Shown here in pieces: positions 14,897-64,000 of a DNA stretch of 64,000 nt. The notes beneath the pieces are model-generated. The model was not told where the DNA came from and ran no database searches. It was given only the letters and a program-made list of their open reading frames with translations. Each line of letters starts with the position of its first letter. The first letter of the stretch is position 1. The stretch lies in the NCBI RefSeq assembly GCF_003575965.1, contig NZ_QWJJ01000007.1, positions 72,976 through 136,975 of the forward strand. The letters run 5' to 3'. A program made the translations under genes and the position numbers. The DNA comes from Pseudooceanicola sediminis (GTDB taxonomy: Bacteria > Pseudomonadota > Alphaproteobacteria > Rhodobacterales > Rhodobacteraceae).

Positions 14897-14911
14897 GGTG
14901 TGTTTCCTCCC

Positions 14912-15997: not shown

Positions 15998-16040
15998 GGG
16001 TTCTCCCTCCCCTGCCCGGGTTCACCGGGCCTCCCTTTCG

Positions 16041-17054
16041 TCAGTGTGCAGCCAGCGCCGCGCCTGAGGTGTCGAAAAAATGCGCCCGGCCCGCGTCGAC
16101 CGACAGGGCGACCGGCTGGCCGGTGGTGAACCGGGGCTGACCGCGCAGCGTGGCGCGCAGGCTCTGCCCCGCCAGATCGACGCTGATCGTGGTGAAACCG
16201 CCCAGCGGCTCGACCTCGGTGATGCGCGCGCCCTCGCCCGGCGCGACGCGCAGGTTTTCGGGCCGCACGCCCAGGCTGTCGGCGCCCTGCGGCCCCTGCA
16301 CCTGCAACGACGCGGCCAGCGCCATCGGCACCACGTTCATCGCCGGCGCCCCCAGCATCCCGGCGACGTAGGTCGAGTTCGGGTGGCGATAGATGTCTTC
16401 CGGCGTGCCGGTCTGGCAGATGCGGCCGGCCTGGAACACCGCCATGCCATCCGCGACCGACATCGCCTCTTCCTGGTCATGGGTGACATAGACCAGCGTC
16501 TTGCCCATTTCCTGCTGGATCCGGCGCAGTTCCACGCGGGTCTGTTCGCGCAGGCGCGCGTCCAGCGCCGAAATCGGGTCGTCCATCAGGTAGGCGACCG
16601 GATCGCGCACCAGCGCGCGGGCGATGGCAACGCGCTGACGTTCGCCGCCCGACAGCTGCGCGGGCGGCTTGTGCAGGATGTGGCCGATGTGCAGTTTCTC
16701 GCACACCTCCGCCACGCGCGCGGCGATCTTGTCCGGCGCGACGCGCCGTTCGACCAGCGGAAAGCGGATATTGTCCAGCGCCGACATATGCGGAAACAGC
16801 GCCAGGTTCTGAAACACCATCGCCACGTTGCGCTGTGCCGGGCCGATGCCGGTGACCGGGCGGCCGTCGATCAGGATTTCGCCCGCGTCGGGTTTTTCCA
16901 GCCCCAGGATCAGCTTGAGAATGGTGGATTTGCCCGACAGCGGCGGGCCGAACAGGCAGAAGAACGCGTTGTCGCGGATGTCGAAGCTGACGTCATCCAC
17001 TGCCGTCACATCGCCGAACCGCTTGGTCACGTTGCGAAAGGAGATCGAGGCCAT
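16041..17054 (-). CDS. ABC transporter ATP-binding protein (MalK/UgpC type), Walker-B variant
   Basis: A 337-aa ATPase of the carbohydrate-importer type with an N-terminal nucleotide-binding domain and a C-terminal TOBE-like regulatory part from about 240. Walker A reads GPPLSGKST (36-44), the Q-loop VFQN, the signature LSGGE (134-138) and the H-loop VYVTHDQ. Walker B reads YLMDDP, so the catalytic Glu is replaced by Asp159. The start shares bases with the stop of the second ATPase gene (TGATG). The two ATPases probably form a heterodimer. Combined with the degenerate signature of the partner, one of the two ATP sites is predicted to be poor. Gene order (binding protein, two permeases, two ATPases) recalls the GlpSTPQV glycerol importer. 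Confidence 0.93.
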   Translation of the reverse strand: MASISFRNVTKRFGDVTAVDDVSFDIRDNAFFCLFGPPLSGKSTILKLILGLEKPDAGEILIDGRPVTGIGPAQRNVAMVFQNLALFPHMSALDNIRFPLVERRVAPDKIAARVAEVCEKLHIGHILHKPPAQLSGGERQRVAIARALVRDPVAYLMDDPISALDARLREQTRVELRRIQQEMGKTLVYVTHDQEEAMSVADGMAVFQAGRICQTGTPEDIYRHPNSTYVAGMLGAPAMNVVPMALAASLQVQGPQGADSLGVRPENLRVAPGEGARITEVEPLGGFTTISVDLAGQSLRATLRGQPRFTTGQPVALSVDAGRAHFFDTSGAALAAH

Positions 17055-18115
17055 CAGAGCGCCCTTTCCGTCTTGGCATCAAACAGGCGGACCGAGGCCG
17101 CAGGGATCGAAAAGCGGAACACCTCGCCCTGTCCGGGCGTCGGGGTTTCACTGTCGAGCACCGCCTTCGCCTCGTGCCCCTGCGTCACAAGGTGCAGGAT
17201 GGTGCGCGCGCCGATGCGTTCGACCATGCTGACCTGCATCGCCAGCGGGCCGGCCGGATCGGGCTGGACCTCTTCGGGGCGGAACCCGAACAGGACATCG
17301 CCCCCCTGCGCCGCCATCACGGGGCCGGACCGACCCGCAGCCCCCAGATCGACCTGCGTGCCGCTGTCCGAGCTGACGACCTGGCCCGACAGCAGGTTCA
17401 TCCCCGGCGCGCCGATGAAACGGGCGACAAAGGTGTCGGCGGGGTGGTTGTAGACCTCAAGCGGGGTGCCGACCTGCAACAGCCTGCCGTGGTCCATCAC
17501 CGCGATGCGGTCGGCCATGGTCATCGCCTCAAGCTGGTCGTGGGTGACATAGACCATGGTCTGCCGGAACTGGCGTTGCAGCGATTTCAGTTCCGACCGC
17601 ATGACGGCCCGAAAGGCGGCATCGACGTTCGACAGCGGCTCATCCAGCAGAAAGATCGCCGGTTCCACCACCGCCGACCGCCCGATGGCCAGCCGTTGCA
17701 GGATGTTCACCGACAGGCCCGCCGCGCGGCGATCCAGCATCGGGGTCAGTTGCAGCAGCTCGGCAATCTCGGCCACGCGGCGGGTGATCTCGGACCGCCC
17801 GACGCCCTGGGCGCGCAGCCCGTAGGCCAGGTTTTCACGCACGCTCATATGGGTGAAGATGGCGTAGTTCTGGAACACGAAGCCGACGCCGCGCCTCGCC
17901 ATCGGCACGCCGTTCATCGGGCGGCCGTCAAAGCGGATCTCGCCATGGCTGGGGTCCAGCATCCCGGCGATCATGTTCATCGTCGTCGACTTGCCACAGC
18001 CCGACGGGCCCAGCAGCGCGACGAATTCGCCATCCCCGATGGTCAGGTTCATCCCCGCCAGCGCGGTGAAATCACCAAAGTCCTTGCCAAGGTTTTCCAT
18101 CACGATTTCGGTCAT
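17054..18115 (-). CDS. ABC transporter ATP-binding protein with degenerate signature motif
   Basis: A 353-aa ATPase from the ATG at 18115, which overlaps the permease stop (ATGA). A longer upstream frame lies inside the permease gene and is rejected. Walker A GPSGCGKST (36-44) and Walker B LLDEP with Glu159 are intact, as is VYVTHDQ. The ABC signature reads LSVNI (134-138) in place of LSGGQ. That departure is strong, since the signature contacts the partner's ATP. A TOBE-like C-terminal domain follows from about 240. It is inferred to pair with the neighbouring ATPase, whose Walker B Glu is Asp, so both defects would fall in the same composite site. Confidence 0.93.
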   Translation of the reverse strand: MTEIVMENLGKDFGDFTALAGMNLTIGDGEFVALLGPSGCGKSTTMNMIAGMLDPSHGEIRFDGRPMNGVPMARRGVGFVFQNYAIFTHMSVRENLAYGLRAQGVGRSEITRRVAEIAELLQLTPMLDRRAAGLSVNILQRLAIGRSAVVEPAIFLLDEPLSNVDAAFRAVMRSELKSLQRQFRQTMVYVTHDQLEAMTMADRIAVMDHGRLLQVGTPLEVYNHPADTFVARFIGAPGMNLLSGQVVSSDSGTQVDLGAAGRSGPVMAAQGGDVLFGFRPEEVQPDPAGPLAMQVSMVERIGARTILHLVTQGHEAKAVLDSETPTPGQGEVFRFSIPAASVRLFDAKTERAL

Positions 18116-49581: not shown

Positions 49582-50789
49582 ACGACGCAACCGCAGAGAC
49601 CTTCGGCCCGCTCGCCGGGCTGCGTGTCCTCGACATCGCCACCATCATCGCCGCGCCCTTCGCCGCCTCGCTGCTGGCCGATTTCGGCGCCGAAGTGACC
49701 AAGTTCGAGATCCCCGGCCAAGGCGACGGGCTGCGCGCCTTCCCGCCCTTCCGGGATCAGAAGTCCCTGTGGTGGAAGGTCACCAACCGCGGCAAGCGCT
49801 ACGGCACACTGGACCTGCGCCGCCCCGAGGGGCTGGAGGTGATGAAACGCATGATCGCCCAGACCGACGTGCTGATCGAGAACTTCCGCGCCGGTACGCT
49901 GGCCCGCTGGGGTCTCGACCGTGAGACCCTGTGGGCGATCAATCCGAACCTGGTGATCCTGCGCGTCACCGCCTTCGGCCAGACCGGTCCGCGCGCCAAC
50001 CAGGGCGGCTTTGCCCGCATCTTCGAGGCCATGGGCGGGCTGACCCATATCACCGGCATGGCCGATGGCGACCCGGTCCACCCCGGCTATCCCATCGCGG
50101 ATGCCTTCGGCGGGCTCTTCGGTGCCTTCTCGATCATGGCCGCGCTCTATGGCGTGGTGAAGAACGGCACCAAGGGCGAAGAGATCGACCTGGCCCTGAC
50201 CGAAGCCACCTTTCGGCTGCTGGAAAACCTGGCCATCGAATACGACCAGCTGGGCCAGGTGCGCGCACGCGACGGCAACAACAACCAATACACCGCCCCC
50301 GCCAATGTCTTCCGCACCTCCGACGGGCGCTTCGTCACCGTCACCGGCTCCACCAATTCGATGTTCGCCGCGAACATGCGCGCCATCGGCCGGGACGAGC
50401 TGATCGAGGATCCGCGCTTCAAGACCAACCGCGACCGGATGGAGTACCGCCAAGAGCTGGACGGCATCTTCCGCGACTACATGGACAGGCACACCCTGGA
50501 CGAGACGCTGGCGGACTTCACCCGCGAAGGCGGCGCGATCGGGCCCATCTACTCGGTAGAGCAGATCTTCGAGGACCCACAGGTACAGGCCCGTGAGGTG
50601 GTCACCCCGGTGAAGGACGAGGACTTCGGCACGGTCCGCATGCAGAACGTCGTGCCCCGATTGACCAACAACCCCGGCCAGATCCGCTGGGCCGCGAAAT
50701 CCCTGGGTGCAGATACCGACTCCATCCTGAAGGACCTCGGCTATTCGCCCGAAGACATCGCCCGCCACCGCGCCAACGGCATCATCTGA
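49578..50789 (+). CDS. CaiB/BaiF family (type III) CoA transferase, catalytic Asp replaced
   Basis: A 403-aa family III CoA-transferase homologue with the usual N-terminal IIAAPFAASLLADFGAEV and DVLIENFRAGTLARWGL. At the usual catalytic Asp position the motif reads GGFARIFEAMGG, so the residue is Ala146. Some succinyl-CoA-dependent relatives also vary here, so inactivity cannot be assumed. Start and lactonase stop overlap (ATGA), and the hydratase/dehydrogenase follows after 21 bp. It may transfer CoA to the ring-opened acid. Confidence 0.88.
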   Translation: MNDATAETFGPLAGLRVLDIATIIAAPFAASLLADFGAEVTKFEIPGQGDGLRAFPPFRDQKSLWWKVTNRGKRYGTLDLRRPEGLEVMKRMIAQTDVLIENFRAGTLARWGLDRETLWAINPNLVILRVTAFGQTGPRANQGGFARIFEAMGGLTHITGMADGDPVHPGYPIADAFGGLFGAFSIMAALYGVVKNGTKGEEIDLALTEATFRLLENLAIEYDQLGQVRARDGNNNQYTAPANVFRTSDGRFVTVTGSTNSMFAANMRAIGRDELIEDPRFKTNRDRMEYRQELDGIFRDYMDRHTLDETLADFTREGGAIGPIYSVEQIFEDPQVQAREVVTPVKDEDFGTVRMQNVVPRLTNNPGQIRWAAKSLGADTDSILKDLGYSPEDIARHRANGII

Positions 50790-50810
50790 CCTCAGCCCCG
50801 AGAGGACACC

Positions 50811-52769
50811 ATGGATACTCTGACCCAGCCGCTCGTCCGCAGCGTCACCGAAGACGGCATTGCCACCCTGACCATCGACCGCCCACCGGCAAACGCCCTG
50901 TCCCAGGACCTGCGCGCGGCAATTCTGGCCGCATTGGACCACGCGGCGGCCGATACCGGCGTCGAAGGGGTCATCCTCGCCTGCGCCGGCAAGACCTTCA
51001 TCGCCGGCGCCGAGATTTCCGAACTCGGTCTGCCGCTCTCGCCCACGCTGCCCGAAGTGCTTGAACGCATCGAGGGGCTGGGCAAGCCGGTCGCCGCGGC
51101 GTTGCACGGCACCGCTCTGGGCGGCGGTTTCGAGGTGGCGCTGGCCTGCGGTCTGCGCGTGGCGCGCGCCGACAGCAAGATCGGCCTGCCCGAGGTGCGC
51201 CTTGGCATCCTGCCCGGATCCGGCGGTACCGTCCGCGCCACCCGCCTGGCGGGCGCCGAAGTGGCCCAGACCCTCGCGGGCAGCGGAGAGATGATGCCCG
51301 TCGAAACCGCGCTGACCCATGGCCTCGTCGACGAGGTGGTGCCGGGCGATCCTGTGGAGGCCGCCGCCGCGCGCCTGCGCGCCTTGATCGCGGACGGCAC
51401 CCCGCCCGCACTGGTGCGCAACCGCATGCCCGCCATCGCCGCCGATACCGACCAGCTGGAGTTGCTGGCCGCCGCGCAGCAGCGCAAGCTGCGCGCGCCC
51501 ACGCCGCGCGTGGTGTTGCAGTCCATCCTCAACGCCCAGAGCCTACCCTTCGACGAGGCGCTGACCAAGGAGCGCGAGATCTTTCTCGACGCCGTTGCCT
51601 CGCCCACCTCGGCGGCGCTGCGCCACCTGTTCTTCGCCGAACGCGCTGCGGCGAAATCCGGGATCGACCGCTCCGTCGCGGCGCGCGGCATCTCTTCCGT
51701 CTGCGTCATCGGCGCAGGGACCATGGGACGCGGAATTGCCATGGCCTTTGCCGATGCGGGCTTCTCCGTCACCCTCTGCGACCTGTCCCAGGACGCCTTG
51801 GACGCCGCGCTGGCAGCGATCGGAACGCTCTACGACGGCATGGCCGCCAAGGGTCGCATCGCCGCCTCCGACGCCGAGGGCCGCAAGGCCCGGATCGCGA
51901 CCACCACCGACCTGGCGACCCAGATCGACTGTGACCTGTTCGTCGAAGCCGCGTTCGAGGACATGGGCGTGAAGAAATCACTCTTTGCCCAGCTCGATGC
52001 CGTGGCGAAACCCGGCGCGATCCTGGCGACCAATACCTCCTATCTGAACGTGAACGAGATCGCTGCGGCCACCTCTCGCCCGCAGGACGTGCTGGGCCTG
52101 CATTTCTTTTCTCCGGCCAACATCATGAAGCTGCTTGAGGTCGTCCAGACCACAGCGACCGCGCCGGACGTGCTGCAGACCGCCAGCCTGCTGGCCAAGC
52201 GACTGAACAAGCAGGCCGTGACGGTCGGCGTCTGCCGCGGCTTCGTCGGCAACCGCATGCTGCAAGCCCGCAACCGCGCCGTGCCGCAACTGTTGTGCGA
52301 AGGCGCGACACCTGCCCAGATCGACGAGGCGTTCCGCGCGCTCGGCTGGCCCATGGGCCCGTGCGAGGTGCAGGACCTTTCCGGCCTCGATATCGCCTGG
52401 CGGATGCGCAAGGCCGAAGGGCTGAGCGAACCCGTGGCCGATACGCTCTGCGAACGCGGGCGCCTGGGCCAGAAAGCGGGCAAGGGCTGGTACGACTACG
52501 TCGACGGCAAAAAGCAGCCCTCTGACGAAGTGTACGAGGTGGTCGCCGCGATCGCCACGGGTCAGGGCATCCGCCAGCGCCAGATCACTGCAGAAGAAAT
52601 CATCGCCCGCACCCATGACCCGATGATTGCCGAGGGCGAGGCCCTGCTGGCCGAGGGCATCGCCCGCAGCCGCGACGACATCGACGTGGTCTGGGTCAAC
52701 GGCTACGGCTTTCCGCGCGCCCTGGGCGGCCCGATGTACTGGGATGCGAACGGGAGGCCCAAGGCGTGA
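50811..52769 (+). CDS. bifunctional enoyl-CoA hydratase/3-hydroxyacyl-CoA dehydrogenase
   Basis: A 652-aa FadJ/PimF-like enzyme. The N-terminal crotonase domain (1-~190) keeps both acids (GGGFEVALACG and GLPEVRLGI). The C-terminal 3-hydroxyacyl-CoA dehydrogenase starts at VIGAGTMGRGIAMAF near 300, with the signature HFFSPANIMKLLEVV near 428 and a second helical domain with GFVGNRMLQARN. It catalyses two successive steps of beta-oxidation, hydration and NAD-linked oxidation. The next gene overlaps by GTGA. No thiolase follows, so the keto-acyl-CoA must be cleaved by another route. Confidence 0.93.
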   Translation: MDTLTQPLVRSVTEDGIATLTIDRPPANALSQDLRAAILAALDHAAADTGVEGVILACAGKTFIAGAEISELGLPLSPTLPEVLERIEGLGKPVAAALHGTALGGGFEVALACGLRVARADSKIGLPEVRLGILPGSGGTVRATRLAGAEVAQTLAGSGEMMPVETALTHGLVDEVVPGDPVEAAAARLRALIADGTPPALVRNRMPAIAADTDQLELLAAAQQRKLRAPTPRVVLQSILNAQSLPFDEALTKEREIFLDAVASPTSAALRHLFFAERAAAKSGIDRSVAARGISSVCVIGAGTMGRGIAMAFADAGFSVTLCDLSQDALDAALAAIGTLYDGMAAKGRIAASDAEGRKARIATTTDLATQIDCDLFVEAAFEDMGVKKSLFAQLDAVAKPGAILATNTSYLNVNEIAAATSRPQDVLGLHFFSPANIMKLLEVVQTTATAPDVLQTASLLAKRLNKQAVTVGVCRGFVGNRMLQARNRAVPQLLCEGATPAQIDEAFRALGWPMGPCEVQDLSGLDIAWRMRKAEGLSEPVADTLCERGRLGQKAGKGWYDYVDGKKQPSDEVYEVVAAIATGQGIRQRQITAEEIIARTHDPMIAEGEALLAEGIARSRDDIDVVWVNGYGFPRALGGPMYWDANGRPKA

Positions 52770-53581
52770 GCAAGATCACCGAAATTCGCAGCGAAGAGGC
52801 CCGGCCAGGCATCCTCCAGATCACCCTGGACGGTGCCGCGACCCGCAACTCCATCGGGCGCGACCAATACGATGCCCTGCGCGCGGCGCTGGTCGACGCC
52901 GGCACCCGGACAGACCTGCGCGCCGTGGTTCTGACCGGCGCCGGGGGCTTCTTCAGCTCGGGCGGCAATGTCTCGGCGCTCAAGCAAGGTCGCGCCCTGC
53001 CCCTGTCGGAAGTGATGAAGAACACCGATTCCTTAGGTGCGATGATCCTGGCGCTGCGCAACTGCCCTCTGCCGGTGATCGGCGCGGTCGAGGGGGGTGC
53101 GGCGGGCCTCGGCCTGGCGCTGGCTCTGTCCTGCGACATGCTCGTGGCGTCGGAGACCGCGAAATTCACCGCCGCCTACGTCAAGATCGGCCTCACACCC
53201 GACGGCGGCACCACCCATTTCCTGCGCGAGGCCCTGCCACGCCAGCTGGTCAGCGAAATGTGCCTGCTGGGGCGCCCCATGCCCGCCACCCGCCTGCACC
53301 AGGCCGGCACCATCAACACCCTCGCCCCCGAGGGCGGCAGCCTTGAGGCCGCGATGGAGCTGGCCATCGACTGTGCCCGCGGCCCCCGCACTGCCATGGG
53401 CGCCATCAAGGCCGAGATCGAGGCCGCACCGCTGAACGGCCTGGCCGCCCAGTTGGACCTCGAGGCGCGTGGCATCAACGCCGCCCGCTACGGTGACGAG
53501 GCAGGCGAAGGCCTTGCCGCCTTCCTGGAAAAGCGCGCGCCCAATTTCTCGCCGAACGACCGAGAAGGAGACAGCCGATGA
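52766..53581 (+). CDS. enoyl-CoA isomerase-like crotonase (PaaG-like)
   Basis: A 271-aa crotonase-fold protein from GTG 52766 in a GTGA overlap. Neither hydratase Glu is present (positions equivalent to Glu144/Glu164 are Ala118 and Tyr138). LTPDGGTTHFL (Asp146) matches the acid of PaaG-type isomerases, so isomerisation of a double bond rather than hydration is likely. The oxyanion loop is FSSGGNVSAL. It ends overlapping the third acyl-CoA dehydrogenase (ATGA). Confidence 0.88.
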   Translation: MSKITEIRSEEARPGILQITLDGAATRNSIGRDQYDALRAALVDAGTRTDLRAVVLTGAGGFFSSGGNVSALKQGRALPLSEVMKNTDSLGAMILALRNCPLPVIGAVEGGAAGLGLALALSCDMLVASETAKFTAAYVKIGLTPDGGTTHFLREALPRQLVSEMCLLGRPMPATRLHQAGTINTLAPEGGSLEAAMELAIDCARGPRTAMGAIKAEIEAAPLNGLAAQLDLEARGINAARYGDEAGEGLAAFLEKRAPNFSPNDREGDSR

Positions 53582-54732
53582 TCCGCGACCCCAAAGCTCT
53601 CGACGCACTGATTTCCGGCGTGCATGACTGGGTGCGCAGCACCGCCCACCCCGCCGAAGACCTCGTTGACGAGCGTGACGAGGTGCCGGCCGAAATCGTC
53701 GCCGACATGGCCGAGCGCGGCTATTTCGGCTGGTCCATTCCCGAGGAATATGGCGGCCTTGGCCTGACCACCGAAGAACTGGTCATGGGTGCGATGGAGC
53801 TGTCGCAATGCGCCGTGGCCTTTCGCGCCCGGGTCGGCACCAACACCGGCATCGGCTCCGAGGCGCTGGTGGCAGATGGCACCGACTGGCAGAAACGGAC
53901 CTACCTGCCGCTGCTGGCAAAAGGCGAGATGACGGGCAGCTTCGCGCTGACCGAACCCGAGGCCGGATCGGACGCCTCGGCGCTGACGACCTCTGCTCGG
54001 CGCGATGGTGATGACTACATCCTGGACGGGATGAAGTGCTACATCACCAACGCGCCGATTGCCGACCTGTTCACCGTCATGGCCCGCACCGCCCCCGACA
54101 CGCCCGGCGCACGCGGCGTGTCGGCCTTTCTGGTGGAACGCACCATGCCCGGCCTGACCACCTCGGCGGGCTACAAGATGATGGGCCAGCGTGGCTCGCC
54201 CGTCGGCGAAGTGCATCTGGACGGCGTCCGTGTCCCCGCCCGCAACCTGATCGGCGGAGAAGAGGGTCAGGGCTTCCGCACCGCGATGAAGGTGTTGAAC
54301 AAGCAACGCATCCACCTGGCCGCACTTTGCACCGGCCCGGCGATCCGAATGCTGGACATGGCGATGCATCACGCCGAAAGCCGCCACCAGTCCGGCCGCG
54401 CCATCGCCGATTTTCAACTGGTCGCCGCCCTGCTGGCCGATTGCCGCACCGATATCGAGGCCGCCCGCGCCCTGGTCCTGCAAACCGCCCGCGCCCGGGA
54501 CCAGGGGCGCGACATCGCGCTCGAGGCCTCGATCTGCAAGTACTTCGCCTCCGAGGCCTGCGGCCGTGTTGCGGATCGCTGCGTGCAGGTGTTCGGCGGT
54601 GCAGGCTACGTGGCCAACCACAGCAGCATTGAGCGCTATTACCGCGATATTCGGCTGTTCCGCCTCTACGAGGGCACCAGCCAGATCCACCAGCTCAACA
54701 TCATGAAACAGATGCGCCGCGCCCGGGCGTAG
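53578..54732 (+). CDS. acyl-CoA dehydrogenase
   Basis: A 384-aa acyl-CoA dehydrogenase of the standard homotetrameric kind. Substrate/FAD loops FALTEPEAGSDASALTT near 123 and MKCYITNA near 154 are present. The catalytic Glu of medium- and short-chain types is intact (LYEGTSQIH, Glu365). It differs in this respect from the heteromeric-type pair earlier in the operon and probably acts on a different, smaller intermediate. It is coupled by ATGA to the isomerase-like gene. Confidence 0.94.
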   Translation: MIRDPKALDALISGVHDWVRSTAHPAEDLVDERDEVPAEIVADMAERGYFGWSIPEEYGGLGLTTEELVMGAMELSQCAVAFRARVGTNTGIGSEALVADGTDWQKRTYLPLLAKGEMTGSFALTEPEAGSDASALTTSARRDGDDYILDGMKCYITNAPIADLFTVMARTAPDTPGARGVSAFLVERTMPGLTTSAGYKMMGQRGSPVGEVHLDGVRVPARNLIGGEEGQGFRTAMKVLNKQRIHLAALCTGPAIRMLDMAMHHAESRHQSGRAIADFQLVAALLADCRTDIEAARALVLQTARARDQGRDIALEASICKYFASEACGRVADRCVQVFGGAGYVANHSSIERYYRDIRLFRLYEGTSQIHQLNIMKQMRRARA

Positions 54733-54755
54733 CCGCGACAGAAAGGACACCCCAC

Positions 54756-55823
54756 ATGCAGTGCCAATGCATCCAGCACTTCGGCCAGCCGCTGATCCAG
54801 GACGAACGCCCTGACATGACCCCGACCGGAACCGAGGTGATCCTGGAGGTCACGGCCGCCGGCGTCTGCCACACCGACCTGCACATGCGCGAAGGCGGTG
54901 TCGACCTGGGCCGTGGAGAGCGCCTGAACTACGCGGATCGCGGTATCAAGCTGCCACTGACCGTAGGGCATGAAACGGTGGGCCGCGTGATCGCTGCCGG
55001 TCCCGACGCGGGCGAGATCGACATGACCCGCAACTACGTCGTCTTTCCCTGGTGCGGCTGCGGTGCCTGCGACGTCTGCCGCCAAGGAGATGAGAACCTC
55101 TGCGCCACACCGCGCTACCTGGGCATCCACGTGGATGGCGGCTATGCCACCCAGCTGCGGATCGCCCATCCCCGCTACCTGTTCGACATCGGCGACCTGG
55201 ACCCGGCGCGTGCCGCTCCGCTGGCCTGCTCGGGGCTGACGACGTTCTCGGCACTGAAAAAGCTGGGGGACAGCTATTTCGACCAGCCGCCGCTGCTGAT
55301 CGGTGCCGGCGGCCTGGGCTTGATGTGTATCCGGCTCCTGGCCGCTCTGGGCGCCAAGGCCCCTGTCGTGGCCGACATCGACCCGGCCAAACGCGCCGCC
55401 GCGCTGGAGGCTGGGGCTGCCGCCGTGATCGACCCCGCGTCGCCCGATGTCCTGTCCGAGATCGCCAGTGCCTGCGGCGGCACCCCGCCCCGCGCCATTC
55501 TTGACTTCGTCGGTGCCGAGGCAACTGCCAAGCTCGCCTTCAACGCTCTGGCGCGCAATGGCAAGCTGGTCACAGTCGGCCTCTTCGGCGGGGCGGCCCC
55601 CTGGTCTCTGCCCATGATCACCCTGAAATCCGTACATATCATGGGCAGCTACGTCGGCTCCCTGACCGAGTTCGCCGAGCTGATCGAGATCGCCCGCAGC
55701 GGCGCCATCGATGCGATCCCCAGCACCGTCTTCCCGCTCGACAAGGCCGAAGAGACGCTCAACCTGCTGGAAGAGGGCAAGATCGTCGGGCGCGCGGTCC
55801 TGTCCCCGGCAACGCAGGTTTAA
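54756..55823 (+). CDS. zinc-binding alcohol dehydrogenase family protein
   Basis: A 355-aa medium-chain dehydrogenase. Catalytic zinc ligands: Cys in GVCHTDLH near 38 and the HE pair in VGHETVGRV near 72. The structural zinc cluster is CGCGACDVCRQGDENLC near 96-112. The Rossmann motif IGAGGLGLMCIRL is near 182. It oxidises an alcohol with NAD(P). Hydroxy-acyl-CoA dehydrogenases of alicyclic ring pathways belong to this group, which would fit the operon, but this is not shown. It is the last gene of the TetR-regulated operon, 23 bp after the acyl-CoA dehydrogenase. Confidence 0.92.
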   Translation: MQCQCIQHFGQPLIQDERPDMTPTGTEVILEVTAAGVCHTDLHMREGGVDLGRGERLNYADRGIKLPLTVGHETVGRVIAAGPDAGEIDMTRNYVVFPWCGCGACDVCRQGDENLCATPRYLGIHVDGGYATQLRIAHPRYLFDIGDLDPARAAPLACSGLTTFSALKKLGDSYFDQPPLLIGAGGLGLMCIRLLAALGAKAPVVADIDPAKRAAALEAGAAAVIDPASPDVLSEIASACGGTPPRAILDFVGAEATAKLAFNALARNGKLVTVGLFGGAAPWSLPMITLKSVHIMGSYVGSLTEFAELIEIARSGAIDAIPSTVFPLDKAEETLNLLEEGKIVGRAVLSPATQV

Positions 55824-56022
55824 AAGGCTAGAAGTGTAAATGGCTATGCCGGGCACGTTTTCTCGTTCTCGGCATCACCCCGGTTAACCATGACGCGCTG
55901 CCAAGACAAGGCCACCCAAGGCGGCTCAATCGGAACCACTGAAGATTCAGGTTGGCGGAGGGGATGGGCCCGACGTCGAACCTTCTCCACCCTGCAAGAC
56001 ATTGAAAAGGCTGGAAGGTCCG

Positions 56023-57339
56023 TTACGTTGAAAGCTCAGATACTGGCTCATCCCCGAGAAGTAGACTTCGCAGTCGGTCAAGTACGCATACACCATTTGC
56101 CACATCAATGCTTGCAGTCTCCAGGATTGTCTCGTGACCGGTTATTCGGTGTCGAGCGTGAACAAGCTCTGTTGCACCCAGCCCCGGATGATGAGGATAC
56201 AGAAGGGTAAGACGCGGCGCGCGGTAAAGCTGCGCATAGGCCATCATCTGGTAGACATCGCCTTGTGAGACGCCCTGTTTTGGATCGTCGATCCGGGAGG
56301 AGATCTTCTTCCACTTGGTGTCAATTACATGAGTTACGGTGCCAGCACGGCGGATCAGGATATCTGGCTTAGTCTGGAAGAGCCCTCGCTCGGTCGATTC
56401 TGCGGAAAGGCAGAACAGACGCCCGCCCTGAAGGGAAACCGTCAGGTCCGCCCCAGCCAGTGCCCGGGAAATCAGACGCCCGACATATTCCTCGAACAGT
56501 GTGTTCATCTCAAACAGCAGCGCTGTTCCCTGCCCCGCGCCACCAGTCGTCGTCTGATATCGGCCCTCTAGGAAGAGACGGGCCATGCTCAGAAGCTCCC
56601 GCCACCGGCGATTGGTACGGTCGATCACCACGTCATCCCACCGCAATTCCGAGGGCGAAATATCCGCGATGTCCGCATACACAAAAGCCAGTTCTCGTAG
56701 CCACTGTTGATTTCCCGTACTCCGAGACCTCCGAGAAAGGTGCAACACGGCGGCTTTCATGATCCGATTCAACGACGTGTCTTCCGACAAGACGTCAAAT
56801 CGGCATGCGAGACGGGAAGGATTGACTGCGTATCGCGTGAACTGGCGTGCTACGTCCAACCTGCCGCGCAAGGCGGAAAGATCGTCCTCTTGCTCGACAT
56901 AGCGGCGCGGCATTCCTTTCCGGACGGCCTCGGTAAGTTTGTCGCAAAAGATCCGGATCAGGATTTCAAGTAAGGTTTCTCGCTGCCACGCTAATTCTGT
57001 TATCGATCCGAGATCGAGTTTCAGATTTAGAGCGACGGCCAGCATGTGGATCAGACGTTTCCTGATCGCCGCATTCTGCTGTTCGACATTCCCTGTCGTC
57101 CCTACGTCAATCTTGGGCAGGATCTCGAGACTACAATTCGCGGTGGCCAAGATACCGACGACACCTCTTGCGCGCAGAGCATGCCGTCCATGCTCGAGCA
57201 CCCCGCTGCCGCCCTTTCCAGCGAAGGGTGAGCGCCTGGCCAAAGCCGCAAGCTGATCCGCGAAATGTGCTGGGATTTGCCCGTCATCGTCACCATAGGC
57301 GAGCTTCTCCCATTCGCGAACGGTATAGGATTGCATCAA
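56023..57339 (-). CDS. mcrC: McrC-type PD-(D/E)xK subunit of a type IV restriction system
   Basis: A 438-aa McrC homologue. The N-terminal half (VREWEKLAYG at the start, then NCSLEILPKID near 71) is the McrB-interacting region. The nuclease core is TKPDILIRR and VIDTKWKKI, near 320-345, giving the D...D-x-K active site, with SQGDVYQMMAYAQLY as the Q-motif helix. It cuts DNA when McrB recognises a modified site. The start overlaps the McrB stop by ATGA. Codon use is less GC-rich than in the metabolic operons to the left, as in the whole locus, pointing to acquisition. Confidence 0.92.
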   Translation of the reverse strand: MMQSYTVREWEKLAYGDDDGQIPAHFADQLAALARRSPFAGKGGSGVLEHGRHALRARGVVGILATANCSLEILPKIDVGTTGNVEQQNAAIRKRLIHMLAVALNLKLDLGSITELAWQRETLLEILIRIFCDKLTEAVRKGMPRRYVEQEDDLSALRGRLDVARQFTRYAVNPSRLACRFDVLSEDTSLNRIMKAAVLHLSRRSRSTGNQQWLRELAFVYADIADISPSELRWDDVVIDRTNRRWRELLSMARLFLEGRYQTTTGGAGQGTALLFEMNTLFEEYVGRLISRALAGADLTVSLQGGRLFCLSAESTERGLFQTKPDILIRRAGTVTHVIDTKWKKISSRIDDPKQGVSQGDVYQMMAYAQLYRAPRLTLLYPHHPGLGATELVHARHRITGHETILETASIDVANGVCVLDRLRSLLLGDEPVSELST

Positions 57340-59873
57340 GCCTCAAACTCCGAAAAGTCGAAGTCTGCCTTCACGTTCCAACGAAATTTGTCACCGTTGA
57401 TGTCATCTTCGGGCATCCCCTTCGGTGGCTTAAGGCCGGCAGATTCAAGGAAGTGTTCTTTGGCCATTCCCGGTCCGTCACCCAACACCGCGGCGACCTT
57501 GGCCCAATCCTCGTAGAAGTACTCAGCCAACAAAGGGATTACCTTGTGGCGCATTACGTCTTCTACGTCCGCCCGACTGTGGCAGCTGGTAAAATAGGCA
57601 TGTCCTATCTGATGTTCGCGATCAAACAGATATTCGATGCGCTCATTGATCGTTGACAGAAGAGCGCGAAGGTTGATGCCGCCGACATCCTCAGAAAGAA
57701 CTGTCGGGTCGGGCATCAACTCCTGAAACGTGAAACGGCGGCGCAACGCTGTGTCGAGCAGTGCGATGGAGCGATCCGCTGTGTTCATCGTACCCACGAT
57801 GTGTAGATTGGGCGGCACCCCAAATCGCTTCTTGGAATATGGCAGTTGAACACGAACTTCATTCTGCGCGCCCAATCGTTTGTCCTGTTCAAGCAAAGTG
57901 ATGAGTTCGCCGAAAACCTTGGAAATGTTCGCGCGGTTGATCTCGTCGATGATCAGAACATAGTCCCGGCCCACTTTGCCTCGGAGAGATGTGTCTTCGC
58001 CGAAAGTGATCTCTTCAAGCGCATCCCAATCGATTAACGACTGGTTCAGCTTGTAGACCGAATGTCGCCTGAACCCATTGGGGTAAAATCTGCTGCGATC
58101 GGTTCCCTCATCGCTGCGCCAGAGCCACTCCATTTTGCGCCGGTGGAGGTGATAGGTCGCATCAGGATCGAAGTAATACTCACCAGAAACCTGGCCGAAT
58201 GCCTGGATACGGTCACGACCATCCGAAATCACGACATAGTCGCCCACTTGCATATCAGCCCTAAAAGAGAAGGTGCAGACGATGTTTCCGTCATGACCAC
58301 TGGCTTCTGGGTTCTTCTTCGACCTCCATTCAGCGAAAATCTCGTTGAATTCGTCAAACCGCTCATCAGACCAATCGATGTCTTCGCCCCACCCAAGATG
58401 GATCAGATCGTTATCGAGGCCATATCGGATCCTTTCATCTTCGACATGTCGTCTGCCAAGAGCTACCTTAAAAACGCGCGCAGAACGGTCTAGGCGTTGC
58501 GTTCCAGCGCTTTCGCCCTGATCAAGCCTTGCACGTTCACTGATCCGTTTGAAAATACCCTCATGGCATTTCAGCCGAAAGCCCGTTCCGCCCGCTGTTT
58601 CATCAGGACCTTCAAGGTCATCGTCGCCGGTACTCGGCCGCATGCCCTCGACGAATTCTTCGTATGACAAGGATTGATGAAAGGTCAGGAACTCTATTCG
58701 CCCCTCATTCGCGAGACGCCGATACTCAGCAGTTAATGCGTCTCTATCATCTTTGAGCACCGCAGCGGACTCGGCTCCGACACAGAGCCGCACCGCTTCC
58801 CATGCAGTCTGATACGTCTTGCCCGTGCCCGGCGGGCCATAGAGGATCAAGTTTACGGCGGAAGGCGAAGCTGCATTGTTTGTGTCGGTCACGGTGTCCG
58901 CCTCCGGTTGGGAATTGAGCGTATATGTAAATATGGTCGAGCTGCTTGGGTTTGGCTCGGTACTTGTGGGCGGCGGAACCTGCGCAAGATTCTGCAACTT
59001 TTCACCGCCCAAGGCCTGGCAGATGTTCGGGAAGGCGTCCTTCAGCCCAATTGCCGCTGCAAGGTCGCCCGCGCGGATGGAGACCTCCCTGGCTGCATTT
59101 TCCCGGGCAGGTTCGATGAAATAGTTCAGGGCGCAGAGTCTGATCCGATCAGCGCCTTCCATCAGGTGCTCGTAGCGTTCAGGTCGCTCGATCGGCTGAT
59201 CGTTTTGGTCAATGATAATGAAACCGGCGTTGTGAAGACGCGCAGCAGCATCCGACTTCTGTCCCCAACCGCCGTTTAGCTCTGTCTTGTTCAGAATGAA
59301 ACCAATCAGCGACTTAGTTGGATAGACGCGATTTTCGCGCTCACGGGTGGAACGTACCCAATAATCACGCGGTTCCCCAAATGCACTAAAGATTTCGCGA
59401 TGAGCTCCATCCTTACGGAAACTGTCATAAGCATCCATCGCGGCTTCGATCTCACGTCGACTTAAACCGCCCTCAACACTGCGTATTGCCTGAACCTCGG
59501 AATACCATTTGAGAAACTTCTCCAATTCTTGCTGAGTTTCAACAAACACACTCATTTGCTGCCCCGGATATATTCGGGATCCTTTGAATTTGTAGGCGGA
59601 ACTCTGAAATTGACGATCTGTTGGTTCTGACGCCAAAAATGAGGTCACTTGCGCCCAGGGCAATTCCGCCCCTGCAGGCCTACTCTCGCAAACGATCTTG
59701 ACCTGGTGGGCATAGCCACGAGATTTTGTGTCATTGATTTCGACTGCGAAAACCCTGTCAGACTGAGTTTTGAATACAATAGCCTTGGTCGCGCGCGCAG
59801 TGGAGCTTAAACGTGTTAGACGGCCTGCATCTGCTAGCGATTGCACGAAATTCAGAGCATCTTCACTGTTCAT
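57336..59873 (-). CDS. mcrB: McrB-like AAA+ GTPase with head domain and EVE-like insert
   Basis: An 845-aa protein from the ATG at 59873, which has GGGGA upstream and overlaps the helicase stop (ATGA). A ten-residue longer start is less likely. The region at about 1-120 is unrecognised and beta-rich. About 135-230 resembles the ScoMcrA-type head domain (YPTKSLIGFIL, GGWGQ). Walker A GPPGTGKT is at 346-353. The AAA core is then interrupted by about 150 residues (roughly 467-615) resembling an EVE/PUA modified-base domain (HLGWGE, VGDYVVISDG, AFGQV). McrB motifs resume at IIDEINRANISKVFGE (640 on) and MNTADRS near 696. Probably it senses a modified base and drives McrC. Confidence 0.9.
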   Translation of the reverse strand: MNSEDALNFVQSLADAGRLTRLSSTARATKAIVFKTQSDRVFAVEINDTKSRGYAHQVKIVCESRPAGAELPWAQVTSFLASEPTDRQFQSSAYKFKGSRIYPGQQMSVFVETQQELEKFLKWYSEVQAIRSVEGGLSRREIEAAMDAYDSFRKDGAHREIFSAFGEPRDYWVRSTRERENRVYPTKSLIGFILNKTELNGGWGQKSDAAARLHNAGFIIIDQNDQPIERPERYEHLMEGADRIRLCALNYFIEPARENAAREVSIRAGDLAAAIGLKDAFPNICQALGGEKLQNLAQVPPPTSTEPNPSSSTIFTYTLNSQPEADTVTDTNNAASPSAVNLILYGPPGTGKTYQTAWEAVRLCVGAESAAVLKDDRDALTAEYRRLANEGRIEFLTFHQSLSYEEFVEGMRPSTGDDDLEGPDETAGGTGFRLKCHEGIFKRISERARLDQGESAGTQRLDRSARVFKVALGRRHVEDERIRYGLDNDLIHLGWGEDIDWSDERFDEFNEIFAEWRSKKNPEASGHDGNIVCTFSFRADMQVGDYVVISDGRDRIQAFGQVSGEYYFDPDATYHLHRRKMEWLWRSDEGTDRSRFYPNGFRRHSVYKLNQSLIDWDALEEITFGEDTSLRGKVGRDYVLIIDEINRANISKVFGELITLLEQDKRLGAQNEVRVQLPYSKKRFGVPPNLHIVGTMNTADRSIALLDTALRRRFTFQELMPDPTVLSEDVGGINLRALLSTINERIEYLFDREHQIGHAYFTSCHSRADVEDVMRHKVIPLLAEYFYEDWAKVAAVLGDGPGMAKEHFLESAGLKPPKGMPEDDINGDKFRWNVKADFDFSEFEA

Positions 59874-62800
59874 ATAGTTCCCCAGAACGTTTCGAGAGCA
59901 CACAGTGTATTCACCAGCTGCATTTGCTCAACAGTATTGCACTTAGCCTCACGCAATCGCGGCGCTCCAAATACCAATGCGAGGCCCTTGGCGCGTGACA
60001 CCGCGACATTGATGCGGTTCAGCGAAAACAGAAACTCCATCCCGCGCGAGGTTTCTTCGGCGGAAGATGCAGTCATGGACACCAGGCAAACTGGCGCCTC
60101 TTGCCCCTGAAACTTGTCCACGGTTCCAACGCGGACGCTTGAAGGAAGCGCATCGCGGAGCGCGTTTACCTGAGCGTTGTACGGAGCGACGACAATGATG
60201 TCCGTCTCGCGCATCGGCCGCGTGCTGCCGTCCTTCTCCTTCCAGCTGCTGTCAAGGAGGTCAGTGACGGTTTTGCCAATAGCGGCGACTTCTTCCTGTG
60301 CGATCTGTGCATTGCCCTCATGCGGAACCGGCACCCAGAAAGCTCCGGCTTCGGGAAGCGCCGTGCCTGTCACGCATTGGTTAGCCGTATCAGGATGGCT
60401 GCTCAGTCGGCCTTCATACACCTGTTCCGAGACAAACCGACAGACCTCCGGATGCATGCGCCGGGATGTGGGAAGGAAGATGCCCCGCTCGGCTGGAACC
60501 GTCGCATGCTCACCGAGCATCCAATCCAGGCATGACAGGTTCGCAGGCTCGAGATGTGCCCCTTGGATGACCTGCGGCAACTGCCGCGGGTCGCCCACAA
60601 GTACGATGTTTCGCGCGGCACGCCCCATGGCGGCCATGTTGGCAAGTCCGACCTGGCCTGCCTCGTCCACGAACAGCCAATCAAAGGCCTGAACATTTTC
60701 GTCGCGCGAGAAGAACCACGCGGTGCCGCCCACGACATGCCCGCCGTTGGCGGCCTCTGCGTTGTCGGTCGTACGATGAACATCGCAATCTTCCGGATAA
60801 CCATCCTCGCTGCCAGAAACCTTGTGCACGAGTTCGAGATTGATCGGCAGGTCTTCGTCTTCCAACGCTGAAAGACAGCCCATCAGCACATTCCTGATAG
60901 CCTCGTGGCTGTTGGATGCGACGCCGACGCGATGGCCCTTGCGCACCAAAGACAGGATCGCGCGTGCACTCACATAGGTCTTGCCGGTACCAGGTGGCCC
61001 CTGAATCGGCAGGACAGTTTCATCCATGTCATTCACCACGGCAATAGTGCCCTCTACAGGGTCTGCCCCGCCCAAAAGATCGCCTCGTGGGCCAGAGCCC
61101 AGACGCGGTGCAGCGCGCGACAGCAGGTCGTCCACCGCCGTGTACCGGCGCGCGCCGCACTGATCGGCGATCACATCGCGCAAAGCACCGGCAATGACAC
61201 CCGTCTGGATCGGCCAGTCCGGATGCAGCGTCAGTTGATCCGCCAAGAGGTCGGCTTTGCCTGGACCTGCCTTGACCGTGATCTGACGAGCGCGGCGATC
61301 CATGGACTCGATCCCGACAGTAGTAGGAGGGCTGTCAAACACCGGAACCGTCGCTTTCTTGCCGCTCCGCAGTTTCGTTTCCTGTTCGGGATAGGTGTAT
61401 CGGCGCGCGAAGGAACGCTTGACGGGTTCGACAGGACCTGCTGCTTCGAGCCCTCCAAGCGCATCGAGATCGTCGAGCAGATCATCTTCGTCCTTCGCAG
61501 CACTATCGAACACGGCCCATTGCGCGGGCTTAACCTCGCGGCTGTGAAAGACGCCTAGGTTAAACAGCATATCCTGCCGCGCCTCGGGCAAGCCGGACCC
61601 TGCCAGCATGTTTCGCAATGCTTGCGTATCGGCATCCTCTTCGATCTCTTTTTCTCCGGCGTCCGGGGCAAGGGTCGGCCAAGGGCCGGAGGGTCGGATG
61701 CCTACCAGCCAGTCGCGCAATTCCTCGGTCGAGATACAATCGACGCGGTTGTAATCCTCGATCTCGTCCAGAATCTGCTGGTCCTGCGTTTCGCGCCAGC
61801 GCTCATATGCCACGACCGAGCCACCCGCCGTCTTGACCTCACCGTCGCGCTTGCGGTCGTAAAAAGCCTCCATCGATTTGATGGAATAGTTCGGTTCCGA
61901 TCCGATCAGCCCGCCGCGGACCACGGCAAACAGATCGACGAAGCGGCGTTCCCGGAGCAGCCGGTCAAGGAAAGCCTCTCCGATCCCGTATTTCGTGGTC
62001 AGGCGTTTGAGCGCTGTGATCTCGTAGGGCGCGTAGTGATAGATGCGCGCAGTGGGGTACTGCGAAATCCGCGCGCGAAAAAACGCCAGCAAGTCGGACA
62101 ATGCCCGCGCTTCTGCGTCGTGGTCATGGGCCCAGAACGCCTTGAACGCCCCGTCGAACCAGATGCCGTGCAGGTATTCGAGGCCGCCCTCGTAGTGTGG
62201 ATCGCCTTCAATGTCGTAGAACAAGTCGCCCGGCTGCGGTTCCGGCAACAGGTCAAAGCCCTTGCTAGGCTCGGGCGCCCGTAGTTCGAAATCTGGCTCC
62301 CCAGTTTTACGGGCCTGCTGCAGGCGGGCCTGCGTGACCAAACGGGCCTGGGTGTTTTCGGCCATTCCGCGCACTGGGTGATCCAACGTCGAGAGAGCCT
62401 CCAATGTGTGAACACCCGCAGCTTCGAGTTTTTTCACCTGACCACGACTTATATTTGCGACATTGAACAAGCTGTCTTCGGCCTGCCAGACGCTGTTGCA
62501 ATGATCAGCCCAGCGGCACAGACCGCAATCGGCACATGGCACCGGGCGTGTCGGCTGCGGATCAGCGATGAAAGCTTCCAACCGTTCGCGGGCCATTCGA
62601 GCATAGGCCGCGTAATCCGCCAGACGCAGCGTCGCGCGCGTGCCGTCGCCCAATTCGACATGCGCAAACTCGGGCACCACCCCCTGAATTTCCGCCAGCA
62701 GATCGGAATACAGCACCAGCTGAAGCACATGTTTGGGATCGGCACGACGTTTCAGCTTGGTGTCCGCCACCTCATAGCTGAACGACCCAAGCGCCGAGGG

Positions 62801-63157
62801 TGTCTCGACACGTTCCAGGAAGTCGGACCAGCCGCCCCAGTTCCCCGACAGAAACGCGCCCTGAAACACGACATCCGGACCAGCGGCGAGTGCCGCGCGC
62901 GTGGCCTCGGCGTTTTCACTAAGCTTGCCACGCTCGATTTCCATAACTGTGCGTCCGGCCTCCTTGAGGCGTGCAAGATGCGCCGCCTCGTGCGCATCGC
63001 CCTGTTTTTGCAACAGTGCCGCGTCCTCGGTGTCGTCGCCCGGCTCCGGGCCCGTTCCGCGCATATGTGCCAGATCAAGGGTGGTCGCATGTGCGCAGCC
63101 TGTGAAGCGCATGAGATCCGTGGCGGACAAAAATATGCGACCGTCGAGATCCCTCAT
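59870..63157 (-). CDS. TM0106-family RecB/Cas4-like nuclease fused to SF1 Dna2/Upf1-type helicase
   Basis: A 1095-aa protein from the ATG at 63157 (GGAG upstream). Residues ~1-225 form a RecB/Cas4-like nuclease: Cys21, VADTKLKRRADP near 130, QLVLYSDLL near 146, and the Fe-S cysteines CADCGLCRWADHC (208-220). About 305-485 is an RNase-H-like 3'-5' exonuclease part (FYDIEGDP, Asp315, and NRVDCIST). The C-terminal SF1B helicase has GPPGTGKT (720-727), VDEAGQ (830 on), VGDPRQLPQV, VGTVDKFQGQE and SRAKG. The stop overlaps the McrB start, so it is part of the McrBC operon and probably processes the cut or modified DNA. Confidence 0.92.
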   Translation of the reverse strand: MRDLDGRIFLSATDLMRFTGCAHATTLDLAHMRGTGPEPGDDTEDAALLQKQGDAHEAAHLARLKEAGRTVMEIERGKLSENAEATRAALAAGPDVVFQGAFLSGNWGGWSDFLERVETPSALGSFSYEVADTKLKRRADPKHVLQLVLYSDLLAEIQGVVPEFAHVELGDGTRATLRLADYAAYARMARERLEAFIADPQPTRPVPCADCGLCRWADHCNSVWQAEDSLFNVANISRGQVKKLEAAGVHTLEALSTLDHPVRGMAENTQARLVTQARLQQARKTGEPDFELRAPEPSKGFDLLPEPQPGDLFYDIEGDPHYEGGLEYLHGIWFDGAFKAFWAHDHDAEARALSDLLAFFRARISQYPTARIYHYAPYEITALKRLTTKYGIGEAFLDRLLRERRFVDLFAVVRGGLIGSEPNYSIKSMEAFYDRKRDGEVKTAGGSVVAYERWRETQDQQILDEIEDYNRVDCISTEELRDWLVGIRPSGPWPTLAPDAGEKEIEEDADTQALRNMLAGSGLPEARQDMLFNLGVFHSREVKPAQWAVFDSAAKDEDDLLDDLDALGGLEAAGPVEPVKRSFARRYTYPEQETKLRSGKKATVPVFDSPPTTVGIESMDRRARQITVKAGPGKADLLADQLTLHPDWPIQTGVIAGALRDVIADQCGARRYTAVDDLLSRAAPRLGSGPRGDLLGGADPVEGTIAVVNDMDETVLPIQGPPGTGKTYVSARAILSLVRKGHRVGVASNSHEAIRNVLMGCLSALEDEDLPINLELVHKVSGSEDGYPEDCDVHRTTDNAEAANGGHVVGGTAWFFSRDENVQAFDWLFVDEAGQVGLANMAAMGRAARNIVLVGDPRQLPQVIQGAHLEPANLSCLDWMLGEHATVPAERGIFLPTSRRMHPEVCRFVSEQVYEGRLSSHPDTANQCVTGTALPEAGAFWVPVPHEGNAQIAQEEVAAIGKTVTDLLDSSWKEKDGSTRPMRETDIIVVAPYNAQVNALRDALPSSVRVGTVDKFQGQEAPVCLVSMTASSAEETSRGMEFLFSLNRINVAVSRAKGLALVFGAPRLREAKCNTVEQMQLVNTLCALETFWGTI

Positions 63158-63207
63158 GGCTACTCCATTACCTATGCAAATCAATCTCCAAGGGAATCAC
63201 CTCGACA

Positions 63208-63219
63208 GACCGCAAGGTC
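63208..63219. promoter_or_regulatory. small palindrome GACC-GCAA-GGTC in the divergent gap
   Basis: Short inverted arms in the 105-bp gap between the nuclease-helicase and WYL genes. It is a candidate site for the WYL regulator, offered with low confidence because the arms are only 4 bp. Confidence 0.3.
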
Positions 63220-63262
63220 ATCAATACCGTTTGAGGGTGTCAATTTCTGGCATGGAGATCAA

Positions 63263-64000
63263 ATGTCTTTTGCAAAAGCGCAGGATTTGCTTCGCCTTGC
63301 CCAGATGGCGGCGTCCCGCCGAGGTGGCGTAAGCCTTGAGGACATCTGCGCCGAGTTCGATGTATCGCATCGCACCGCTCAACGCATGACCGAGGCTCTC
63401 GAAGCAACTTTCGTGAATGTTTCGACCACAGACGACGCAGAAAGACGGCGATACTGGCGGATGGACGCACCCTTGCCAGACCAACTGCAGCCCCGACAGG
63501 AAACGGCGATCGAAGCGCTGGAGATTGCGGCGCGTACCGCGCGCGATGAAGGGCGTATACGACATTCACGCGCTCTGGAGGATCTCCGCGACGGGCTGCT
63601 GGCGCGTTTGAATCCGAGGGACGCGCTTCGGTCGGAGGTCGATGCAGAGGCAGTGCTGGCTGGATTAGGCCAGGTCACGCGCCCGGGCCCTACCGTTACG
63701 CTGAAGCCTGCCGTGACAGATGCTGTCATCGAAGCGCTGCGCGGTCCCTTCAGGCTGCGCGTCTGCTATGGCGCGCAGGGCGCTGCGCCGCGTGTGATCG
63801 AGCCACATGGCATGTTGCTGGGGCACCGCAGCTATCTCGTCGCGCGCCAACCCTCGCGTGGAGAAGACATCCTGAACTTCCGCATGGATCGGATTTATGA
63901 GGCGGAAGTTCTGAACGAAAGCTTCCAACTGGCCTCAGGTTTCTCCCTGGAGACCTATGCCGCTCAGGCGTTTGGTGTCTATCAAGACCCCGAACAATAC
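63263..64000 (+). CDS. WYL-domain transcriptional regulator, truncated by window end
   Basis: An open frame of 246 codons with no stop before the window edge, so the 3' end is missing. The N-terminus is a winged-helix DNA-binding domain (LLRLAQMAASRRGGVSLEDI, then FDVSHRTAQRMTEAL). From about residue 155 a WYL domain is seen: RVIEPHGMLLGHRSYLVAR and NFRMDRIYEAEV. WYL regulators often control defence operons and respond to nucleic acids or nucleotides. It diverges from the nuclease-helicase/McrB/McrC operon with 105 bp between starts, so it is the likely regulator of that operon. Confidence 0.88.
   Translation, partial: MSFAKAQDLLRLAQMAASRRGGVSLEDICAEFDVSHRTAQRMTEALEATFVNVSTTDDAERRRYWRMDAPLPDQLQPRQETAIEALEIAARTARDEGRIRHSRALEDLRDGLLARLNPRDALRSEVDAEAVLAGLGQVTRPGPTVTLKPAVTDAVIEALRGPFRLRVCYGAQGAAPRVIEPHGMLLGHRSYLVARQPSRGEDILNFRMDRIYEAEVLNESFQLASGFSLETYAAQAFGVYQDPEQY

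Follow-up and report, generated by a model that had tools for sequence, protein, structure and literature searches.

Here, we describe a putative defence locus at the right-hand end of a 64,000-nucleotide stretch of the Pseudooceanicola sediminis genome (contig NZ_QWJJ01000007.1, positions 72,976 to 136,975; hereafter, the window), in which the gene for a TM0106-family nuclease-helicase (HEL) is followed by the genes for the restriction proteins McrB and McrC and faces a divergent gene for a WYL regulator. All coordinates are window positions, with values above 64000 denoting window equivalents beyond its end. HEL (59870-63157, minus strand) comprises 1095 amino acids (aa) from the ATG at 63157, or 1104 aa if the TTG at 63184 is used. 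Behind it, on the same strand, lie the gene for an 845-aa McrB-like AAA+ GTPase with an NTAD (NxxD) signature (57336-59873) and that for McrC (56023-57339), a PF10117 protein with a PD...DTK nuclease motif. The WYL gene (63263-64000 in the window, plus strand) runs on to 64246, encoding 327 aa when complete, and is followed after 22 bases by a HEPN-type gene that lies outside the window (64269-64934). The 105-base HEL/WYL intergenic promoter region (63158-63262), which is common to loci with different genes behind HEL, contains the operator-like repeat TGCCA-N5-TGACA at 63238-63252. A tmRNA called by ARAGORN inside the WYL gene, on the opposite strand (L002:9550-10196), was taken as a false positive.

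A preliminary description of this DNA had named the same three minus-strand genes and the divergent WYL gene, and both the coordinates and family matches above cut-off bear this out. It had also placed ATGA overlaps at both junctions: the one between HEL and McrB is a true ATGA overlap (59870-59873), whereas the McrB/McrC junction, GGCTTGATGCAA, has a TTGATG core, so that McrC would start either at the TTG at 57339 (4-base TTGA overlap) or at the ATG at 57336 (TGATG, 1-base overlap); the tight junction as such stands. The contrast in base composition was recovered as well: 2-kb segments have a GC content of 0.66-0.69 on the left flank (50001 to 56000) and of 0.53-0.61 when they start at 56001 or later.

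In HEL, a Cas4-like PD-(D/E)XK nuclease with conserved cysteines is followed by an RNase_H_2 domain (DEDD-type exonuclease) and a UPF1/DNA2-like superfamily 1 (SF1) helicase. A family profile scan matched the protein to TIGR03491 (TM0106) with 265.8 bits (cut-off 97.45) and, also above cut-off, to RNase_H_2, AAA_11, and AAA_12; TIGR03491 together with the RNase_H_2 and SF1 helicase domains places it in TM0106/COG2251, and the closest solved structures in a profile search of the PDB were SMUBP-2, UPF1, SEN1, and DNA2. Invariant among 81 sequences are D112, D132, and K134 of the PD-(D/E)XK nuclease, the Walker A box, and, in the exonuclease domain, D315, E317, and D473; from the families concerned, we take these to be catalytic residues. 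The cysteines C211, C214, and C220 are equally invariant, with C21 kept in 80 and C208 in 74 of the 81. Assignment to Mokosh was rejected, the best MkoA match being limited to the helicase core (residues 807-1082) rather than full-length.

The McrB profile matches solved McrB structures in the PDB, and N697, A699, and D700 of the NTAD signature are invariant in 23 aligned McrB proteins, T698 being kept in at least 90%. McrC matched the McrBC family PF10117 with 248 bits (cut-off 23.9), and its residues P325, D326, D340, T341, and K342 are invariant in all eight aligned sequences. The pair thus has two sequence hallmarks of type IV restriction by McrBC, namely, an NxxD GTPase in McrB and PF10117 plus a PD-(D/E)XK motif in McrC. 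The N-terminal region of McrB (59466-59873, minus strand; residues 1-136), in place of which other loci have a different one, is probably the specificity domain; it gave no Pfam family above cut-off and no match among the plasmids searched, the sole relative found being a weak match in locus L040. Between Walker A and Walker B lies a 180-residue GTPase insert (57972-58511, minus strand; residues 455-634), part of which matches the PADLOC candidate PDC-S02, with no Pfam family and no convincing PDB match. Such inserts are frequent in McrB and likely encode specificity domains, according to the census of Bell et al. 2024 (PMC11090510). By eye, the insert resembles an EVE domain, an identity that was dropped given the lack of a Pfam family and a single PDB match at chance level (E 1). 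The McrB of L061 (L061:13277-16957) has about 150 further residues directly before Walker B, besides the usual insert.

To place the locus in context, we collected 149 genome loci encoding a HEL relative and compared the best 80 of these (HEL 68-97% identical). A WYL gene lies on the opposite strand in 67 of the 75 loci with at least 1.5 kb of upstream sequence, at most 1 kb away in 63 of them; in the phylum sample described below, 12 of the 19 HEL copies (from 17 genomes) have a WYL gene within 2 kb. A HEPN-type gene is present in 47 of the 72 loci with at least 2.5 kb upstream; for both genes, a match was accepted anywhere within the fetched locus. A TGYCA-N5-TGACA repeat is present in 31 of 34 HEL/WYL intergenic regions of 100-121 bases, a mutually related set from 33 loci and the window. 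The WYL protein matched PF13280 with 32.8 bits (cut-off 21.8) and, at its N-terminus, HTH_23 and HTH_11, both below cut-off; with these sub-threshold helix-turn-helix (HTH) matches, it has the HTH plus WYL domain composition of a BrxR-like regulator. The HEPN-type protein contains the motif RNQL[VI]H in all 19 aligned relatives, HEPN motifs having the form R-x4-6-H, and shares 53% identity with a plasmid protein whose annotation reads 'HEPN domain-containing'; its match to Pfam HEPN was below cut-off (E 0.23), and a profile search of the PDB gave no match. Adjoining the HEPN-type gene, a 424-aa protein with no family above cut-off (L002:10942-12216) has a match in only one of the 80 loci (L060, 90%).

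The genes directly behind HEL change from locus to locus. They were labelled by tblastn with one representative per class, under PADLOC names, so that far-diverged partners can hide among 'other'. McrBC occupies this place in 35 of the 80 loci, a TmtA-type gene (presumably of the system called Tiamat) in 25, Mza in two, Druantia-like DruE in one, and DISARM-like DrmD in one, 12 being 'other' and four having too little downstream sequence; a known defence-class module hence lies behind the HEL 3' end in 64 of 80. Loci with two classes received one label (McrBC for L039, L030, and L066), and a few TmtA labels are weak, that of L048 being based on a 64-bit match and those of L017, L035, L050, and L054 on partial genes. 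The large TmtA-type proteins contain a Sacsin/GHKL-type ATPase region, which reached the Pfam cut-off in one of four representatives scanned. The 'other' loci include L032 with MzaA-like and PbeA genes, L034 with a GajB-like gene 2.5 kb on, L069 with the PADLOC candidate PDC-M26A, L074 with a DUF4357 remnant, and L080 without a class, as well as L064, where SbcD/SbcC-like exonuclease and ATPase genes (13733-17475, by eye) adjoin HEL-WYL, as they also do in L088 (2952-7717).

Mapped onto the HEL tree, partner identity has no detectable phylogenetic signal: the labels require 24 changes over 65 tips (64 loci and the window), compared with 23.3 +/- 2.0 in 200 shuffles (range 18-28), on a quick tree with 18 open forks in which the long branches of L080 and L082 join each other. 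Of 35 McrBC loci, 24 have, within -4 to +3 of the HEL stop, an ATG or GTG opening a frame of at least 60 codons, which may not be the partner itself; the same is true of 12 of 25 TmtA loci and the single DISARM-like locus, and of none of the 12 'other', two Mza, and one DruE loci. By eye, the last residues of HEL tend to vary with the partner, reading TALAEIK/TALTEIK ahead of one TmtA type (four of five loci) and a PEFGD-like sequence ahead of most 1076-aa McrB proteins, as expected if the break lies within the HEL end.

Pairs of closely matching loci display the exchange in place. L044 and L071 are 94% identical over 10.7 kb up to the HEL 3' end, then differ (7.3 kb of McrBC and further genes versus 4.7 kb of DUF4357-TmtA), and resume at 90% over 2.7 kb; L045 and L075 follow a like pattern, with 95% and 91% identity. 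The two pairs are closely related, and a single event may underlie both.

Several features of the compared loci are worth recording alongside. Behind HEL, DUF4357 forms a stand-alone protein of some 109 aa (L013:11418-11747 and nine others), mostly before TmtA and once in an Mza locus, and it is also matched at the McrB N-terminus in L007, L011, L018, L030, L036, L063, and L078; judged by these matches, it is a domain common to different defence classes. Modules are stacked behind one HEL in L030, L066, and L039, where McrBC is followed by c30 plus an SNF2 (DrmD-like) gene or by a TmtA-type gene. A serine-recombinase-like and ParB-like pair (by eye; clusters c12 and c14), possibly the end of a mobile element, lies on the opposite strand a few kb behind HEL in L025, L026, L045, L048, L061, and L071. 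Records titled Nocardioides (L007) and Oceanobacillus (L038), with HEL loci 93% and 79% identical to this one, are likely mislabelled or contaminated assemblies.

The window is itself composite. With L003, L004, and L005 it shares a single 5.03-kb block at 92-93% DNA identity that covers HEPN, WYL, and HEL (59895-64927; from 59897 in L003) and ends about 25 bases before the HEL end, the partners in those three loci being DISARM-like or TmtA. The McrBC block (55953-59452, minus strand) is 95.1% identical to L028, the HEL of which is only 74% identical in DNA. Because the two blocks have different nearest relatives, the window is a mosaic that consists of the core, an N-terminal part of McrB for which no close relative was found, and the body of McrBC.

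This mosaic is set in an island of about 10.6 kb (~55811-66424), with homology to the same-genus genome G003 stopping at 55810 on the left and that to G009 starting at 66425 on the right; each end is set by one genome without HEL, McrBC, and WYL there, and no single genome joins both flanks as an empty site. Of the 22 relatives compared from the same genus, G014 alone matches HEL over more than the helicase core (53-57%). A cluster of the gene transfer agent (GTA)/prophage type (by eye, with DUF2793 by Pfam; L002:12405-19901) flanks the island to the right of the window; it is 83-84% identical in G009, and a 278-base stretch matches contig C35 of this genome at 68%. In G009, a DrmD/SNF2-like gene (L127:9973-12786) takes the place of the HEL locus some 2.7 kb from the right island border, and the site may be a defence hot spot.

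The proposed adjacency of HEL and mcrBC thus recurs, often tightly coupled, among close relatives, and it also recurs in a sample of 398 genomes of the phylum (this genome included), in which HEL was called at E up to 1e-60 and McrC by PF10117. HEL was found in 17 genomes, McrC in 38, and both in 10, against an expectation of 1.6 (hypergeometric P 2e-7, rising to 1e-6 when this genome is excluded; these and the binomial figures treat genomes as independent). The 17 HEL genomes contain 11 McrC places. Seven of these (6 of 10 when this genome is left out) are at most 6 kb from HEL, namely, those of this genome, G354, G406, G158, G206, G253, and G419; the remainder are 8.6 kb away (G366) or on other contigs (three). 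As a control, 1 of 33 N6_Mtase (methylase) places in the same genomes is that close. McrBC also adjoins 4 of 11 fetched distant HELs of 38-44% identity (L154, L156, L157, and L160) in other orders and orientations, which, together with the sample, extends the HEL-McrBC association well beyond this locus. Each partner also occurs without the other. Three plasmid relatives that were opened, of 670 plasmid records matched, have a divergent WYL-HEL pair without McrBC (44-52% identity), and related McrBC operons without HEL nearby include one in Klebsiella (45% McrC identity), one 34 kb from a HEL on a single Sphingobium plasmid, and others beside a type ISP restriction-modification (R-M) gene or behind an AddAB-like pair. 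In L087, a Sinorhizobium meliloti plasmid, such a pair (a PD-(D/E)XK nuclease and a UvrD-helicase) precedes a related McrBC, as if replacing HEL.

The interpretation that we favour, and hold to be somewhat probable, is that the locus is a portable WYL-HEPN-nuclease-helicase core with exchangeable recognition/cleavage modules, serving against phages or other foreign DNA. It builds on features of the sequence itself: which genes are present, the conservation of catalytic motifs, coupling, recurrence, and the exchange of modules in place at the HEL 3' end. The core would have WYL and the HEPN-type gene on one side of the common promoter region and HEL on the other, with a module for recognition and first cut, here the NxxD-type McrBC, directly behind HEL. 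WYL would repress the divergent promoter via the palindromic operator until a signal is bound. McrB would then use its variable N-terminus and its GTPase insert to recognise marked DNA and, with McrC, translocate along it and cut. HEL might load at the resulting DNA ends, unwind them with its SF1 motor (presumably 5'-3', as in the UPF1/DNA2 class), and degrade both strands with its two nucleases, turning a few cuts into full destruction, while the HEPN protein could provide a fallback through RNA cleavage. As HEL would need only ends or single strands, it could serve unrelated recognition modules. More tentatively, and with slightly less than even confidence, we propose that the regulated HEL with its ribonuclease fallback is a common engine of DNA destruction for at least five unrelated modules (McrBC, TmtA-type ATPases, Mza, Druantia-like, and DISARM-like), swapped at the last codons of HEL with the coupling often kept; frequent exchange of this kind would leave the partner without phylogenetic signal.

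Several observations weigh against this interpretation. No HEPN-type gene was detected in 25 of 72 loci, and the assignment of this gene draws on the invariant motif and the annotated relative, with the Pfam match below cut-off and no PDB match. In six of the 12 'other' loci (L012, L037, L042, L052, L073, and L082), no recognisable partner was seen right behind HEL (by eye, without a family scan), and HEL may act alone there. No start lies within -4 to +3 of the HEL stop in 13 of 25 TmtA, 11 of 35 McrBC, both Mza, and the DruE loci. The layouts around distant HELs differ, with WYL on the same strand in L153, L154, L155, and L158 and McrBC before HEL or on the opposite strand, and neither extra region of McrB, the N-terminus or the insert, matches a Pfam family.

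The chief competitor, which we judge unlikely but take seriously, is that HEL, WYL, and HEPN form a complete defence on their own, and that unrelated systems exploit its regulated promoter but do not cooperate with it mechanistically. The six loci with no recognisable partner fit this alternative, as do the related McrBC operons without HEL alongside, the misfit between HEL and partner phylogenies, and the PADLOC models, in which TmtA, Mza, DruE, and the DISARM-like genes are parts of systems of their own. Against it are the translational coupling in several partner classes and the linkage of HEL to McrBC beside 4 of 11 distant HELs, where the other gene orders make the linkage independent of one promoter slot.

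The preliminary description had instead suggested that HEL and McrBC belong to one machine, an extended type IV defence system; on this reading, the two would have co-evolved as one complex, and loci with other partners would be derived. The ATGA overlap between HEL and McrB, the excess of McrC in HEL genomes (10 of 17), and the close linkage of the two, also around distant HELs, speak for such a complex. It is nonetheless improbable, given that McrBC accompanies HEL in only 35 of 80 close relatives, the same core having other partners elsewhere, that the HEL tree holds no partner signal, that the HEL and McrBC blocks of the window differ in their nearest relatives, and that related McrBC operons exist without HEL beside them; as an obligate machine it is rejected by the partner census and the HEL tree. 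The term 'extended type IV defence system' holds for one configuration and fails for the whole, since the system is modular. Ordinary clustering in a defence island, with unrelated defence genes co-located by chance, appears very improbable: the locus does lie on an AT-rich, patchy island and many of its parts are known defence families, but McrC is near HEL in 7 of 11 places and N6_Mtase in 1 of 33 in the same genomes, and the shared promoter element, the coupling, and the breakpoints at the HEL end also speak against it.

If the portable core is a common destruction engine, McrBC, TmtA, Mza, DruE, and the DISARM-like genes would be interchangeable front ends, at least in some alphaproteobacteria, and tallies of single systems would overlook a common partner. 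A general question would become testable, namely, whether one helicase-nuclease boosts unrelated sensors and how a newly acquired sensor can function immediately. As bait for finding further defence modules, one could use the position behind the HEL 3' end. The parts belong to known families; a literature search largely confined to open-access papers found no description of a HEL-WYL-HEPN core with exchangeable partners and no paper treating TM0106 together with McrBC, defense, or nuclease.

The likeness to known systems is considerable part by part. COG2251/TM0106 proteins are described as a PD-(D/E)XK nuclease plus a PF13482 exonuclease, frequently with tandem AAA domains, and 3'-5' exonuclease activity is predicted for PF13482 members (PMC3985635). 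HEL joins the same three elements, a PD-(D/E)XK nuclease, a PF13482-type exonuclease, and AAA helicase domains, whereas the WYL/HEPN core and the exchange of partners are absent from the passages of that paper that describe TM0106. BrxR represses via inverted repeats with a 5-base spacer (PMC9122601), and the WYL protein, like the BrxR/CapW regulators of defence islands treated there, adjoins defence genes; unlike theirs, its constant partner is one divergently transcribed nuclease-helicase, and its putative operator repeat differs.

The McrBC pair resembles E. coli-type type IV restriction in its NxxD McrB GTPase, its PF10117 McrC with a PD...DxK motif, and its GTPase insert, and departs from known McrBC in being coupled to a TM0106 nuclease-helicase beside a WYL/HEPN pair. 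Among the associations that the McrBC census names are type I RM, methyltransferases, DISARM-like genes, and CoCoNuT genes, and 'RecB' is not a word of its main text (PMC11090510). As in CoCoNuT types II/III, a UPF1-like SF1 helicase gene (there CnuH) adjoins homologues of McrB and McrC (CnuB/CnuC), often with overlapping frames as here, and HEPN RNases are among the CoCoNuT effectors (PMC11090510). CoCoNuT GTPases, however, carry an NxD signature (PMC11090510), and membership was rejected on the NxxD motif (NTAD) of the present McrB; moreover, McrC here retains its nuclease motif, HEL combines a TM0106 nuclease with an RNase_H_2 domain, and this locus showed no CnuE. Tiamat (TmtA), Mza, Druantia, and DISARM are known as separate systems, whereas here one WYL-HEL core unites them: in 29 of 80 loci, their genes lie behind HEL where McrBC stands elsewhere.

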